From an uncultured Lachnospiraceae bacterium (GTDB taxonomy: Bacteria > Bacillota > Clostridia > Lachnospirales > Lachnospiraceae), in NCBI GenBank assembly GCA_947570615.1, contig CANOVJ010000032.1, forward strand, positions 1 to 41,967: DNA of 41,967 bases, read 5' to 3'. Each line of letters starts with the position of its first letter. Position 1 is the stretch's first letter. The position numbers were made by a program, and so were the translations under genes. Below are positions 37,578 through 41,874 of this stretch, in pieces. A model generated the notes under the pieces. That model saw nothing but the letters and a program-made list of their open reading frames with translations. It was not told where the DNA came from and made no database searches.

Positions 37578-38426
37578 TTACTCCCTGTAAAATTCCTCCA
37601 GCGCCCTGCCGAAAAATTCTGTCGCGCCTTTCCCGTAAATACTGTCTGTGATCTCCTGGATCTGTCTGTTGGTCTTCCAGAGCCGGGCCAGATCCGCAAG
37701 CAGTACGGAGGCGTCTTCCAACTGATACATTTCTCCGGAAATCGCATCGTACTGCGCCACAAGTCCTCTCACTTCAGGGGAGGAGACCTCCAGACCTCTT
37801 TTTGCCGCAAGCTCTTTCAGAACCTCCTCCATCTTCCGCTGGCATTCGGGAACCAGCTCAGGATTGTGTGGGTTCAGCGAGGCTTCCAGCGCCTTTTCTT
37901 TGCCGCCGTACCACCCGGCCACCTTCCTGAAATTTTCCTGCGCGGCCGGACTCTGCGCATTTTCCATGAAATGTTCACGGAATGCCTCCATACTCCCGTG
38001 CTCTCTTACAAAGATTGCCTTCTGATTCTCGTTCATATGAGAGACCATGGAATCGTAGATGGACTCAATCTCCTCATGATGAAACACTGTAAAATCCATT
38101 TTATCCTCTCCTTTCAGGATATCGTCGATATTTTTAACCAGCCTTTTCAGACGCTCTATTCTGGCGCACAGCATCTGCCGGTGCATCCGCAGAAGCTGGT
38201 TTTTCTCAAGCGCAGGGTTCTCCATAACGGCTCTGATTTCCTTCAGGGGAATATCGAGCTCCCGGAAAAACAGAATCTGCCGTAAAATTTCCAGCGCCTT
38301 ATCGTCATAAAGCCGGTATCCCGCCTCACTTTTGGCCGTGGGCTTAAGAAGCCCGATCTGATCGTAATAGTGGAGCGTGCGCACGCTGATACCTGTCAGA
38401 GCCGATATTTCCTTTACTGTTCTCAT
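37578..38426 (-). CDS. MerR-family regulator with TipAS-type ligand domain
   Basis: 282-residue regulator. Residues 1-70 are a MerR winged helix (MRTVKEISALTGISVRTLHYYDQIGLLKP, then SEAGYRLYDDKALEILRQI), followed by a coiled dimerisation helix (about 75-110). Residues about 150-280 are a TipAS-like antibiotic/ligand-recognition domain. TipA-type proteins bind thiopeptides or other compounds and activate exporters. ATG at 38426 is chosen because it begins the MerR fold and follows GGAGG; the frame extends 35 codons further upstream through the promoter. The nearest candidate target is its own promoter; no exporter is transcribed from it here. Confidence 0.92.
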   Translation of the reverse strand: MRTVKEISALTGISVRTLHYYDQIGLLKPTAKSEAGYRLYDDKALEILRQILFFRELDIPLKEIRAVMENPALEKNQLLRMHRQMLCARIERLKRLVKNIDDILKGEDKMDFTVFHHEEIESIYDSMVSHMNENQKAIFVREHGSMEAFREHFMENAQSPAAQENFRKVAGWYGGKEKALEASLNPHNPELVPECQRKMEEVLKELAAKRGLEVSSPEVRGLVAQYDAISGEMYQLEDASVLLADLARLWKTNRQIQEITDSIYGKGATEFFGRALEEFYRE

Positions 38427-38457
38427 AGCCTTTCGCCTCCCTGTGCCTGATAAGATT

Positions 38458-38488
38458 AATTTAACCTGTGACGCAGCGTGAGGGTCAA
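38458..38488 (-). promoter_or_regulatory. MerR-type promoter with 19-base spacer
   Basis: On the minus strand TTGACC (complement of 38483-38488) and TAAATT (complement of 38458-38463) are 19 bases apart, the overlong spacing typical of MerR-family promoters. An imperfect dyad (TGACGC...GCGTGA) lies between the boxes, the usual operator position, suggesting autoregulation by the MerR/TipA-type protein. Confidence 0.6.
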
Positions 38489-38520
38489 GGGGAATTATAA
38501 AAATTTTTTTCATCGGCGTC

Positions 38521-39045
38521 TTTTTTCGCAAACGACTTGCTCAGGGCAGGCCGAACGGGCTGTTTGGATATTTTAAAAAGAGTGGAATCAGGGTAACTAA
38601 TCCTTATCATGGGATATATTATGTGTTGGATGCGGTTTTGTTCCCCACACAGATTGTTGTCACGAAAGAGCTTGATAAGAAAGAACATACATGGCTGACG
38701 GCGTTATCAGAAGGAATGGAAAAGCAGGATATGGAAGCGTTCCTTGAAAAGATTGATGCATTGACGCAGAAGTTTGACAGGGAGCTGGCGGATTCTGTTT
38801 TAGAGGTAAGTATAAGGGCAAACCGGAAAATGGTGGAAGAATTAAGAGGAGACAGGAATATGTGCCAGGCATTGTTAGAGATTATGGAGCCGGAGATTAT
38901 GAAAATCAAAGAGGAAACCAGGCAGGAAACTATTTTGCGTGCAGTGAAGGGATTCCGGGATTTGGGCGCGGGCAATGCCAGGATAAAGGAACTGTTAAAA
39001 GAAAACTACGATTTTACAGATGAAGAAGCTGAGCAATATTTGTAG
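38521..39045 (+). pseudogene. C-terminal remnant of an Rpn-like PD-(D/E)XK nuclease
   Basis: The frame from about 38521 to 39045 reads GLFGYFKKSGIRVTNPYHG then IYYVLDAVLFPTQIVVTKEL, ELADSVLEVSIRANRKM and a C-terminal helical tail with repeated MEPEIMKIKEETRQE. This matches the C-terminal half of the Rpn-like nuclease proteins common in Lachnospiraceae. No start codon with a ribosome binding site and no N-terminal catalytic half is present; the longest proper ORF starts at a GTG inside the fold (38623). The DNA here is more AT-rich than its surroundings. Probably a dead leftover of a mobile-type gene; a truncated product of 140 residues is possible but unlikely to be made. Confidence 0.7.
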
Positions 39046-39085
39046 TGGCAGTCTTATTCTGGCAGTTATAACTCTGAAAAAAATC

Positions 39086-39114
39086 TTGACAACTCTTCCG
39101 CATTGTGATAAATT
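39086..39114 (+). promoter_or_regulatory. Strong promoter of the ABC-2 operon leader
   Basis: Consensus TTGACA (39086-39091) and TAAATT (39109-39114) are 17 bases apart. Transcription would start near 39121, about 370 bases before the first structural gene, leaving a long leader. Confidence 0.75.
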
Positions 39115-39120
39115 GTTTGA

Positions 39121-39336
39121 AAATTCAAAAGCAGAGGTGGATCCGGCGTTTATATGGGTCCTGCATTGGGGAAAGATGATGTTTAACGCAAAGAACGTAC
39201 CGTTTAGCCTGATTATTATGGAGCAGCAGATTTTTCAAATTACGGTCACAACGTAAGCCCGGCGAAAAGCCAGGAAAACGCATGGCCGTAGGACGAAAAG
39301 TCTTATTTGGCTGTGCGGTAATCAGGAGCGAGGCAG
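39121..39336 (+). ncRNA. Structured leader RNA, riboswitch candidate (c-di-GMP-I/GEMM-like layout)
   Basis: The 3' part of the leader folds into an enclosing stem (39239-39243 ATTAC with 39318-39322 GTAAT, then 39247-39250 CACA with 39312-39315 TGTG) around two hairpins. Hairpin one is CCGGC/GCC-A-GG with a GAAAA loop (39259-39274). The second is GCC/GGC plus GGAC/GTCT with another GAAAA loop (39285-39311). The joining segment GGAAAACGCATGGCC resembles GGGACGCAAAGCC of GEMM (c-di-GMP-I) riboswitches, and the order enclosing stem, GNRA-type hairpin, second hairpin is the same. Key residues differ (GTAAGCC in place of GCAAACC), so it may be a variant or a different class. A terminator follows at once. 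The 39121-39238 part has no structure I can name. Confidence 0.55.
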
Positions 39337-39385
39337 AAACCGCATGGTATATACACAAAGGGTGTATATGGCAGGCGGTTTTTTT
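39337..39385 (+). terminator. Intrinsic terminator of the leader (attenuator)
   Basis: AAACCGC pairs with GCGGTTT and an inner ATATACAC pairs with GTGTATAT; seven or more Ts follow. It ends about 105 bases before the ABC operon start, so it must be read through for the operon to be expressed from the upstream promoter. Confidence 0.88.
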
Positions 39386-39400
39386 ATGCGCAGGGGCGCA
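39382..39400. repeat. 19-base repeat, copy 2 (after terminator)
   Basis: TTTTATGCGCAGGGGCGCA occurs identically at 17587-17605. Each copy begins in the T-run or tail of an intrinsic terminator and contains a short GCGC/GCGC hairpin. Copy 1 lies between the glgCD terminator and the macrodomain gene. Confidence 0.5.
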
Positions 39401-39489
39401 CAGAGAAAAAACCGGCGCGCCGGATTTGCTGCTGTCGCAGCGTGCGCCCCGCGCGGCGAGTAGAGGAGATTCTTAAGGAGGGAGCGACA

Positions 39490-40308
39490 ATGGAAGTAAT
39501 CAACGCGCAGGATTTATCAAAAACCTTTCGGGTAAAGCGAAAGGAAAAGGGGATGAGGGGAAGCTTTCAGGCTATCTTTCATCCGCAGACACAGATGATT
39601 CGGGCGGTAGATCAGGTTTCCTTTTCCGTGGAGGAAGGGGAGATGCTGGCCTTTATCGGGCCTAACGGGGCGGGAAAGAGCACCACGATTAAAATGCTGA
39701 CGGGAATTCTTTATCCCGACGGAGGAAAGGTGGAGGTGCTCGGGCTCGATCCCACCAGAAAGAGAAAGCAGCTCGCTTACCAGATCGGAACCGTGTTCGG
39801 GCAGAAGGAGCAGCTCTGGGTACACTTAACGCCCTATGACAATTTTCGCTTTTTCGGGGCGGTGTACGATCTGACGGACTCGGAGACGGAAAGGCGCATC
39901 GGGGAGCTCTCGGAGATTTTTGATCTGGCCGATTTTATCAATACGCCGGTGAGAAATCTCTCGCTGGGACAGAGGATCCGCTGTGAGATCGTGGCCTCCC
40001 TGATCCACAGGCCCAGAGTGCTTTTTCTGGATGAGCCCACCATCGGGCTGGATCCTGTGGTGAAGGAGTCCATCCGTTCCCTGATCCGGCAGATGAACCG
40101 GGAGTTTAACACGACCATTTTTCTCACCAGCCATGACGTGGGAGATATCGAGAAGCTGTGCAGGCGGATCATCATCGTAAATTCCGGGCAGATCGTACTG
40201 GACGATTCCATGGAGCATCTGAAAAAGCATTATATGGGAAGGGAGACCCTGGAGGATATTATAATGGAGATTTATCAGTCGGAGGGAAAGGTGGCGATGG
40301 ATTCATGA
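39490..40308 (+). CDS. ABC-2 transporter ATP-binding protein
   Basis: 272-residue ATPase. Walker A GPNGAGKSTTIK near residue 58, Q-loop VFGQKEQLWVHLTPYDNFRFFG, signature LSLGQRIRCEIVASL, Walker B VLFLDEPTIGLDP, switch His in LTSHDVGDIE. The long N-terminal extension FRVKRKEKGMRGSFQAIFHP and FGQKEQLW are typical of ATPases that pair with two DUF990/ABC-2 permeases. AAGGAGGG is about 9 bases upstream of the ATG; the upstream frame is leader sequence. Expression is probably governed by the attenuator ahead of it. Confidence 0.93.
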   Translation: MEVINAQDLSKTFRVKRKEKGMRGSFQAIFHPQTQMIRAVDQVSFSVEEGEMLAFIGPNGAGKSTTIKMLTGILYPDGGKVEVLGLDPTRKRKQLAYQIGTVFGQKEQLWVHLTPYDNFRFFGAVYDLTDSETERRIGELSEIFDLADFINTPVRNLSLGQRIRCEIVASLIHRPRVLFLDEPTIGLDPVVKESIRSLIRQMNREFNTTIFLTSHDVGDIEKLCRRIIIVNSGQIVLDDSMEHLKKHYMGRETLEDIIMEIYQSEGKVAMDS

Positions 40309-41096
40309 GAAAGTATATAGTGATCTACCGGTCTGTCCTGATGGAGAATTTACAGTACGCGGCGAGCGTGGCCATGGGCTTTGTGAGCTACTTTATCATC
40401 ATCTACATCTTTTTGAAGCTCTGGAATTCCATGTATGCGGAGCCGGGCTCGCTGATTGCCGGATATGGCCGGGAGCAGATGATCTGGTATGTGATGATCA
40501 CGGAGATGATCTGGTTTGGCGCCCGTTCCGGGGCTGTGACCAGGCAGGCTACGGCGGATATCCGTGGAGGCAACATCGCGTATCAGATGAATAAGCCCTA
40601 CCACTACGCCCTCTATATTCTGGCCAGATACACCGGGGAGTGGAGCGTAAGGCTTCCCATGTACTTTGTTCTGGCGGTGGCCATGGGGCTTGTGATGGTG
40701 GGGCCGCTCTCTGGCTTTGGCCCTTTCGCCGCGCTGGCCGCCGTCGTCAGCATCCTTCTGGGTATTACCATCAACGGGGTTTTCAAGCTATGCATCAGCC
40801 TGTTCTCCTTCTGGATAGAGGACACCAACCCTTTTCAGTGGCTCTACGACAAGCTGATCCTGGTGATCGGGACGATTTTTCCGCTGGAGATTTTCCCCCG
40901 GGCCATGCAGCCTTTTTTAAAGCTGACGCCCATCTATACGGTGTGTTACGGCCCGGCAAAGCTGACAGTGGACTTTACCCCTGAAAAATTTCTGGAGATC
41001 CTGGGGGCGCAGCTTCTGTATCTGGCTGTGGGACTTGGCGCGATGTTTCTGGTCTATGGAAAGGGGGTTAAGAAGCTCTATGTCAACGGGGGTTAA
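40305..41096 (+). CDS. ABC-2 family permease (first)
   Basis: 263-residue membrane protein with about six helices. The N-terminus MRKYIVIYRSVLMENLQYAASVAMGF and the middle segment WFGARSGAVTRQATADIRGGNIAYQMNKPYHY (inverted between helices 2 and 3) are typical of the DUF990-type ABC-2 permeases that work in pairs. ATG overlaps the ATPase stop (ATGA). Start at 40305 is preferred; the frame upstream runs inside the ATPase gene. Substrate unknown. Confidence 0.88.
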   Translation: MRKYIVIYRSVLMENLQYAASVAMGFVSYFIIIYIFLKLWNSMYAEPGSLIAGYGREQMIWYVMITEMIWFGARSGAVTRQATADIRGGNIAYQMNKPYHYALYILARYTGEWSVRLPMYFVLAVAMGLVMVGPLSGFGPFAALAAVVSILLGITINGVFKLCISLFSFWIEDTNPFQWLYDKLILVIGTIFPLEIFPRAMQPFLKLTPIYTVCYGPAKLTVDFTPEKFLEILGAQLLYLAVGLGAMFLVYGKGVKKLYVNGG

Positions 41097-41874
41097 AAAT
41101 CAACTGCGGGTGTGTGCGCTTTCCGTAAAGTATAACATCATGCGGGAGATGCTCAACAAGGTGACCTTTCTCACCAACACGTGCTTTATGATGCTAAACA
41201 ACGCGGCCTTTATCATTCAGTGGCTGATCCTGTTCCGTTTAAAGGGGGATATCGGCGGCTACACTATGCGGGAGGTGATGCTGCTGTGGGGGATCGCCTG
41301 CTGCAGCTTCGGGCTTTCGCACCTTCTGTTTGCGGGGGTGTTCTCCCTGCCGGAGCTGATCATCGGCGGCAGGCTGGATCCCTTCCTGGTACAGCCGAAA
41401 AGCGTACTGCTGGGGGTGATGACCTCCTCCACCCGCATCTCAGCCATGGGGGATCTGGCCTATGGGGTTCTGGTGATGTGCGTGTTCTGTTTCAGTGTAA
41501 AAAGGTTTTTGCTGTTCCTTCTGTTTACCGTGACCGGTGCGGCGATCATCACGGCCTTTGCCCTGCTCATGGGGAGCCTTTGCTTCTGGTTCGTGCGGGG
41601 GGATGTGTTCGGAAATTACATGGTAAACGCCATGGTGAGCTTTTTCACTTATCCGGACGGGATCTTCAATGGGACGGCCAGATTTCTCCTCTACCTTGTG
41701 ATCCCGGTGGGGATGGCGGTGTGGATGCCGGTGCATGTGATGATGGAGTTCGATGCGGGCGCGCTTTTCTCGGTGGTGGGATTTGCGGCGGGACTTTCGG
41801 CAGTGGCGACTGCGGCGTTTTACAGAGGACTTCGCAGATATGCCTCGGGGAATCTGATGGAAGCGAGGGTGTGA
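41080..41874 (+). CDS. ABC-2 family permease (second)
   Basis: 264-residue partner permease with about six helices. Internal landmarks YTMREVMLLWGIACCSFGLSH and ELIIGGRLDPFLVQPKSVLLGVM are conserved in this family, where one permease has the NKP-type loop and the other the VQP-type loop seen here. It overlaps the first permease by 17 bases with a GGGGG-containing site. With the ATPase it forms a complete three-gene transporter of unknown substrate. Confidence 0.88.
   Translation: MSTGVKNQLRVCALSVKYNIMREMLNKVTFLTNTCFMMLNNAAFIIQWLILFRLKGDIGGYTMREVMLLWGIACCSFGLSHLLFAGVFSLPELIIGGRLDPFLVQPKSVLLGVMTSSTRISAMGDLAYGVLVMCVFCFSVKRFLLFLLFTVTGAAIITAFALLMGSLCFWFVRGDVFGNYMVNAMVSFFTYPDGIFNGTARFLLYLVIPVGMAVWMPVHVMMEFDAGALFSVVGFAAGLSAVATAAFYRGLRRYASGNLMEARV

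Follow-up and report, generated by a model that had tools for sequence, protein, structure and literature searches.

A probable ribosome-mediated attenuator with a conserved leader open reading frame precedes an ABC-2 exporter-type operon in Lachnospiraceae

Results

Genes and signals at the locus

The DNA analysed here (hereafter the window) is a stretch of 41,967 nucleotides from an uncultured Lachnospiraceae bacterium. Towards its end, on the plus strand, profile matches identify an ABC-2 transporter operon: an ATPase gene (39490-40308), DrrA-like but below the DrrA family cut-off, followed by two permease genes of the ABC2_membrane_6 family (PF06182), located at 40305-41096 and 41080-41874. 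No solved relative was found for the second permease. Judged from its genes, the operon looks like an exporter-type one. The ATPase start at 39490 is preceded by the ribosome-binding sequence AGGAGGGAGC.

Upstream, also on the plus strand, lies a sigma-70-type promoter pattern (39086-39114; TTGACA, a spacer of 17 and TAAATT, with TG before the second hexamer). The leader between promoter and operon (39115-39390) folds far better than its shuffled versions (z -5.35; none of 200 shuffles was as good) and ends in an intrinsic terminator (39335-39385, plus strand) composed of a hairpin at 39335-39383 and a U tract reaching 39385; a simple terminator scan does not report it and it is shown by folding. 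Promoter, structured leader, terminator and an ABC operon with its own ribosome-binding site, as described in the sequence-only reading, are thus all present. So are the two GAAAA loops, GGCGAAAAGCC at 39261-39271 and GGACGAAAAGTC at 39291-39302.

What that reading overlooked is a short open reading frame (ORF) on the plus strand within the leader. It spans 39179-39256 (25 codons and a stop, encoding MFNAKNVPFSLIIMEQQIFQITVTT), has an alternative ATG at 39176 and is preceded by GGGGAAAG, with a Shine-Dalgarno-like (SD-like) GGGG at 39168-39171.

Between the terminator and the ATPase gene lies a G+C-rich repeat (39386-39475, no strand assigned) with 29 matches in its own genome, itself counted; it is a dispersed REP/MITE-like element outside the switch. 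A minus-strand ORF at 37578-38531, 5' of the operon, looks like a gene for a regulator of the MerR family that has an extended C-terminal portion and is presumably TipA-like. A PLSDB search at blastn sensitivity returned zero matches that would point to plasmid carriage.

Distribution of the leader

A DNA search of 397 genomes of the family, the source genome included, detected the leader in another member of the same genus (L006) and in genomes of three further genera (L004, L005, L007); L008, the remaining weak match, has no leader by eye. When species genomes were scanned for the conserved core AAGTCTTATTTGGCYRTG, 60 loci were obtained, 49 of them in Lachnospiraceae or Clostridiales. The other 11, in unrelated taxa, were taken as chance matches, none having the ABC operon within 4 kb downstream. 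The same ABC ATPase follows the leader in 45 of the 49 loci, its match starting 105-644 nt past the core. In three loci the stored sequence ends 142-387 nt past the core, and in one (L066, Parablautia intestinalis) the ATPase gene has been lost and a permease kept. Among cultured relatives, Parablautia muri (L041) carries the leader with at least the ATPase gene, and Acetatifactor muris DSM 23669 (L052) carries the leader together with the operon. In L066 (2001-2400) the leader is fused directly to the permease at GTGATCTACCGGTCTG, a sequence also found at the permease start of the window, as if a deletion had removed the terminator together with the ATPase gene.

These counts are not counts of independent events: most loci come from metagenome bins, L040 and L060 belong to one genome, and L015/G107, L042/G349, L066/G264 and L071/G370 are each one contig under two names.

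The covariance model R1 matched 8 of the 397 family genomes. Six matches stand beside the ABC operon or its remnant and one stands 5' of argS (L080); the weakest (L082, E 0.005) is ascribed to chance, as inspection revealed no leader there. One of the six genomes (G345) has a second match 5' of BlaI/BlaR1-like genes (L081). Among 37 genomes of the genus, 13 were matched by R1, and in two of these the leader is rich in Arg codons (L101, L102). The source genome itself yielded no second copy with R1 except for an antisense overlap with the element itself; a weak match on contig 15, considered as a second copy, covers just the terminator end and the start of the adjacent repeat. About 500 nt 5' of an ATPase paralogue of 47% identity (L091) were inspected by eye and show no such leader.

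Six of the 397 sampled genomes contain an orthologue of the ATPase with at least 70% identity, and five of the six have an R1 match. The sixth (G127, L090) carries, by eye, a leader ORF of its own (MRNFVYVFSICILELRH), the segments described below and a terminator. Absence of the leader in front of orthologous ABC operons had been named beforehand as one of two results that would speak against the sequence-only reading; the leader proved to be conserved there.

In the window and 44 relatives the hairpin is followed by at least four consecutive T. L021, L055 and L061 keep the terminator hairpin but lack such a T run, and two of them, L021 and L055, have the ATPase start close by; possibly these leaders have shifted to translational attenuation.

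The covariance search proposed by the sequence-only reading, run against Rfam 15 (4227 families), gave nothing at gathering score in the window or in ten relatives. The c-di-GMP-I riboswitch (GEMM, RF01051), which the leader had been thought to recall, produced no match on 38900-39600 even at E up to 10. The sole match in these 701 bases, SSRC8_2 (E 0.61), covers the terminator hairpin and U tail alone and represents chance.

The leader ORF

Together with the window, the 49 loci form a set of 50 leaders, and a short ORF is found in 49 of them, 24 or 25 codons long in 41 cases (range 19-41; the start codons of L015, L041 and L060 were assigned by hand). The remaining leader, L029, retains an intact 3' half (1-300), lacks the start codon and the 5' half of the ORF, and has coding-like DNA upstream. 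A promoter-like site precedes the ORF in 25 of 49 leaders by pattern search.

Presence of an ORF alone is weak evidence, because the same rule finds one in 51% of 2000 shuffled upstream regions. Its setting is more telling. An SD-like 4-mer precedes all 49 ORFs, as against 7% of 13-nt windows further upstream, and ORF plus SD-like 4-mer occur together in 9% of the shuffled regions. The start lies within 6 nt of position -119 in 44 of 49 real leaders and in 7% of shuffled ones. Of 26 non-redundant leaders, 18 have stops in frame 1 and 19 in frame 2; these rows were picked because they have the 25-codon ORF, which makes an open frame 0 a matter of selection. The distance from ATG to segment 1b (see below) is divisible by three in 37 of 38 leaders, a modest support for the ORF since 32 of the 38 have one common length.

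Codons 7-13 mostly read V-L-F-x-x-I/M-I/M, with varying third positions of V and L. F9 is present in 27 and L8 in 23 of 33 leaders; codon 12 is I in 23 and M in 5, codon 13 I in 22 and M in 10, and no residue is invariant at codons 8-13. Codons 17-19 and 22-23 are almost fixed, third positions included, as expected because they pair with downstream RNA. Conservation at the peptide level is only suggestive: in BLOSUM tests 8 and 11 of 100 column shuffles scored equally high.

Alternative pairings within the leader

For the structural analysis 45 of the 50 leaders were retained; those dropped were L029 (no 5' part of the ORF), L066 (no ATPase gene or terminator) and L021, L055 and L061 (no T run). 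Alignment A1 comprises 38 of the 45, the near-identical L026, L037 and L069 and the length variants L041, L060, L063 and L074 being omitted; alignment A2 comprises 31 leaders.

Folding and alignment define the following plus-strand segments of the window. Segment 1a, AGATTTTTC (39228-39236), pairs with segment 2a, GAAAAGTCT (39295-39303), in helix P1a (AGATTTTTC:GAAAAGTCT). Segment 1b, TACGGTCA (39241-39248), consisting of late ORF codons, pairs with 39283-39290 in helix P1b (TACGGTCA:TGGCCGTA), identified by folding and covariation. Through these two helices, segments 2a and 2 are linked to the 3' end of the ORF. Segment 2, CGCATGGCCGTA (39279-39290), has segment 3, GGCTGTGCGG (39309-39318), as its alternative partner, CGCATGGCC joining GGCTGTGCG in the off state. 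Segment 3 may in turn pair with segment 4, CCGCATGGT (39340-39348), which is contained in the 5' arm of the terminator; this is the on state. The stretch ACGCATGGCC, earlier taken for a GEMM-like joining segment, is the switching segment 2 of this leader-peptide attenuator.

Across the 38 leaders of A1, standard pairs occupy 96.4% of cells in P1b, 98.5% in 2:3 and 95.3% in 3:4. Covariation, which the sequence-only reading had looked to homologous leaders for, was found in P1b: three of its pairs are changed on both sides, a value reached by none of 500 shuffles, and every slid version of the helix is worse. Helix 2:3 has one double-sided change, which 62 of 500 shuffles equal, and 3:4 has zero in the 38 leaders, so that in this set covariation lends 3:4 no support. 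Segment 3 had been fixed by the scan pattern; the invariance of the segment 3 helices is partly imposed in this way. By eye, leaders misplaced by MAFFT keep P1a through compensated changes as well, L049 and L053 as GACTTTC with GGAAGTC and L015 as AGGCTTTT with GAAAGTCT.

The enclosing stem of the sequence-only reading corresponds to helix P0, CCTGATTAT (39208-39216, plus strand) with GTAATCAGG (39318-39326, plus strand). It does form in the fold of untranslated RNA, but its 5' arm lies inside the leader ORF, at codons 10-13. Its nine pairs include four that are standard in 21 to 23 of the 38 rows, and some family members have the helix weakly or not at all. As it is not conserved family-wide, P0 is used here solely for the untranslated state, where a codon-shuffle test (below) backs it.

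On these models, terminator and antiterminator would be mutually exclusive and the upstream segments overlap an ORF, which is the arrangement by which an attenuator is recognized.

Folding as a function of ribosome position

We folded the RNA downstream of a ribosome footprint for each P-site codon in 42 of the 45 leaders (L025 and L038 contain N, and segment finding failed in L016), with the transcript cut within the terminator region shortly after segment 4. The mean probability of the antiterminator, P(3:4), is 0.24 at codon 1 (median 0.12), 0.69 at codon 6 and 0.89-0.95 at codons 9-12. It then stays at about 0.65 at codons 13-16, so the on-window is not confined to VLFxxII, and drops to 0.44 at codon 17 and to at most 0.07 at codons 18-26, where P(2:3) is 0.96 or more. 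The few longer ORFs are less clear-cut at some later codons, with P(3:4) of 0.25-0.48 at codons 30-33 (n 2-3). For the window itself the values are 0.00 at codons 1-5, 1.00 at 9-12, 0.58-0.92 at 13-17 and no higher than 0.01 from codon 18 onwards.

The model therefore predicts antitermination with a ribosome at about codons 6-17, most strongly at 9-12, and termination upon completed translation. Robustness was assessed in 34 non-redundant leaders, and the position profile withstood changes of the footprint edge (+13, +19) and of the transcript end. At codon 9, P(3:4) is below 0.9 in six of the 34 (L018, L022, L043, L050, L052, L058), with L050 and L052 near 0. For the divergent leaders L083, L090 and L080 the full three-state profile was not reproduced in this simple model.

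In the window, the untranslated RNA folds into P0 and P1 with segment 3 buried (z -2.40), the on state has P1 with 3:4 (z -4.19), and the off state has 2:3 with the terminator (z -8.21). Never-started translation is predicted to end in termination in 24 of the 34 leaders, the window included; in the other ten, untranslated P(3:4) is 0.5 or more. Folded from the start codon, untranslated RNA has a mean P(3:4) of 0.30, compared with 0.59 when codons 2-16 are shuffled, and 28 of the 34 leaders are lower than their shuffled versions (Wilcoxon p 1e-4, which is optimistic because the leaders are related).

Related leaders in front of argS

The Arg-rich leader L101 was used for a further DNA search, which matched 11 of the 397 genomes, two of them merely as short pieces. 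Of 11 leaders of this type whose downstream gene was tested, eight precede argS (TIGR00456; L101, L111/L080, L107, L108, L110, L113, L114, L115). Downstream of L109 and L112 lie ORFs other than argS or ones without an identification, and L118/L081 (G345, about 1465-1662) precedes a BlaI-like gene. Neither L080 nor L101 has a match in Rfam. The peptides resemble MNTLYMNSLRRRERRRKLL, and most contain an Arg run, as in NSLRRRERRRKLL; in the peptide of L112 several Arg are replaced by Glu.

The argS leaders share with the exporter leaders the order of segments, the GTCTTRTTT...TGCGG stretch, the CCG core in segment 4, an ORF overlapping P1 and a similar predicted on-window. They differ in the Arg run of the peptide, in having argS downstream and in an ORF of 18-19 codons. 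Helix P1 is 97.8% paired in 11 argS-type leaders, with four double-sided changes, a value reached by none of 500 shuffles and by no slid version; further pair types do not rise above the shuffles.

Profiles of P(3:4) were computed for ten argS-type leaders (L101, L102, L107, L108, L110-L114, L118); the segment-4 pattern was not found in L109 and L115, which have no profile. In eight of the ten (L101 and the near-identical L102, L107, L108, L110, L112, L113, L114) P(3:4) is 0.97 or more at codons 10-12, the place where their Arg run starts, and does not exceed 0.21 when the P site holds the last sense codon. At codon 1 it is at most 0.33 in six of these eight, L113 and L114 being the exceptions. 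The value falls only partly (to 0.41) in L118/L081, and the profile is nearly flat in L111/L080. With the stop codon in the P site P(3:4) rises again in several argS-type leaders, a position that the terminating ribosome does not reach.

The argS leaders are likely arginine attenuators. They are also the best control for our method, as stall codons that can be guessed independently fall in the predicted on-window.

Discussion

The leader is very probably a ribosome-mediated transcription attenuator, whatever makes the ribosome stall, and its sensor is most likely the stalled ribosome rather than an RNA binding a small molecule. According to this model, the ribosome translating the 25-codon ORF would act as the sensor. 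A ribosome at the end of the ORF would cover segments 1a and 1b, letting 2 pair with 3; segment 4 would stay free and the terminator would form. A ribosome that stalls earlier, while its P site lies roughly at codons 6-17 and most effectively at 9-12, would leave 1a and 1b to pair with 2a and 2. Segment 3 would then be released to pair with segment 4, and the polymerase would read into the exporter operon. Were the ORF left untranslated, segment 3 of the window, and of most relatives, would be hidden in the P0+P1 stem, and termination would again result.

ORF conservation, exclusive pairings, dependence on ribosome position and association with the operon were computed, whereas the stalling itself is what we infer. 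We suppose that the hydrophobic VLFxxII (codons 7-13) stalls the ribosome upon a bound translation-inhibiting drug or a similar substrate of the exporter; the chances that a drug is the signal appear to us about even. In its hydrophobic character VLFxxII presumably resembles the ErmCL and MsrDL peptides. If true, the leader would report drug-bound ribosomes only, being off when translation is completed and mostly also when translation is absent.

Within the attenuator mechanism, the ribosome might instead stall at codons 8-13 when charged tRNA for Ile, Phe or Leu is short, in the manner of amino-acid attenuators. Ile/Met, Leu and Phe are indeed common at these codons, and the related chassis in front of argS has its Arg codons at the same place. 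The exporter leaders, however, have no invariant run of codons for one residue at the stall site, and the operon is exporter-like, not one for biosynthesis, uptake or an aminoacyl-tRNA synthetase, so starvation strikes us as an improbable signal. Stalling on the nascent peptide under a translation-inhibiting compound is favoured over starvation because of this lack of an invariant run, the hydrophobic nature of the predicted stall site and the exporter-type operon.

Translational attenuation of the ermC type, in which the switch would mainly free the ribosome-binding site of the ATPase gene, could apply to L021, L055 and L061, which have no T run, and the ATPase start is close in L021 and L055. 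As an account of the family it is very unlikely, as the T run is present in the window and 44 relatives and the ribosome-binding site of the window's ATPase gene lies about 90 nt past it.

A ligand-binding riboswitch (a GEMM variant or a new class) with an accidental ORF would fit a highly structured leader with terminator ahead of a transporter and the strong nucleotide conservation, third positions of codons 17-19 and 22-23 included, but we regard it as scarcely credible given no Rfam match, SD-like 4-mers in 49 of 49 leaders against 9% of shuffled regions with ORF and SD, helices P1a, P1b, 2:3 and 3:4 that account for the conserved stretches, and Arg-rich ORFs in the argS relatives. The sequence-only reading of a riboswitch-like attenuator before a transporter is therefore upheld as to the attenuator and abandoned as to the riboswitch, no Rfam family being matched and a leader ORF being present.

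Several consequences follow if the ribosome-mediated attenuator is accepted. The leader indicates roughly where a stall must occur, and so could be used directly as a reporter for the signal to which this exporter of gut Lachnospiraceae responds. The exporter leaders are an additional family that has no Rfam match, and our search of a library of open-licence papers found no description of them. One RNA chassis, fitted with different sensor peptides, seems to underlie both an amino-acid attenuator and an exporter attenuator. We tentatively propose, at somewhat less than even chances, a single Lachnospiraceae attenuator chassis placed before unrelated genes with the sensor peptide swapped, an Arg run before argS and a VLFxxII peptide arresting drug-bound ribosomes before the exporter. 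Finally, the case advises caution: a structured leader and terminator before a transporter need not mean a riboswitch.

Comparison with known systems

Attenuators of this kind are already known, since a survey of 2010 noted numerous attenuators in front of ABC transporters, and also leader peptides, in Firmicutes (PMC2965389). With the c-di-GMP-I riboswitch (GEMM, RF01051) the leader shares a short likeness of segment GGAAAACGCATGGCC alone, with no covariance-model match.

The macrolide leader peptides MefAL, MsrDL, ErmCL and ErmDL are described in PMC10314930 as drug-dependent arrest peptides controlling resistance genes, mefA and msrD being controlled by transcription attenuation. Here too a short leader ORF would control a downstream gene, by a presumed arrest. 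The +x+ arrest motif of the macrolide peptides (PMC10314930) occurs in just 3 of 49 exporter leaders and in differing places.

The closest parallel is BmrB, the leader of the bmrCD multidrug ABC transporter of Bacillus subtilis (PMC4191407). Its translation serves as the sensor, ribosome-targeting antibiotics induce it, and a terminator, an antiterminator and an anti-antiterminator are predicted (PMC4191407). Common to BmrB and, by prediction, to our leader are a short translated ORF 5' of an ABC exporter operon and alternative folds (PMC4191407). BmrB has 53 codons with the terminator inside the ORF (PMC4191407), whereas our ORF, of 25 codons, stops short of both segments 2-4 and the terminator. 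A further difference lies in the ABC2_membrane_6 permeases of the exporter here, and the two systems are likened by description, not by sequence. As far as sequence can tell, the leader would be of the same mechanistic kind as BmrB-bmrCD.
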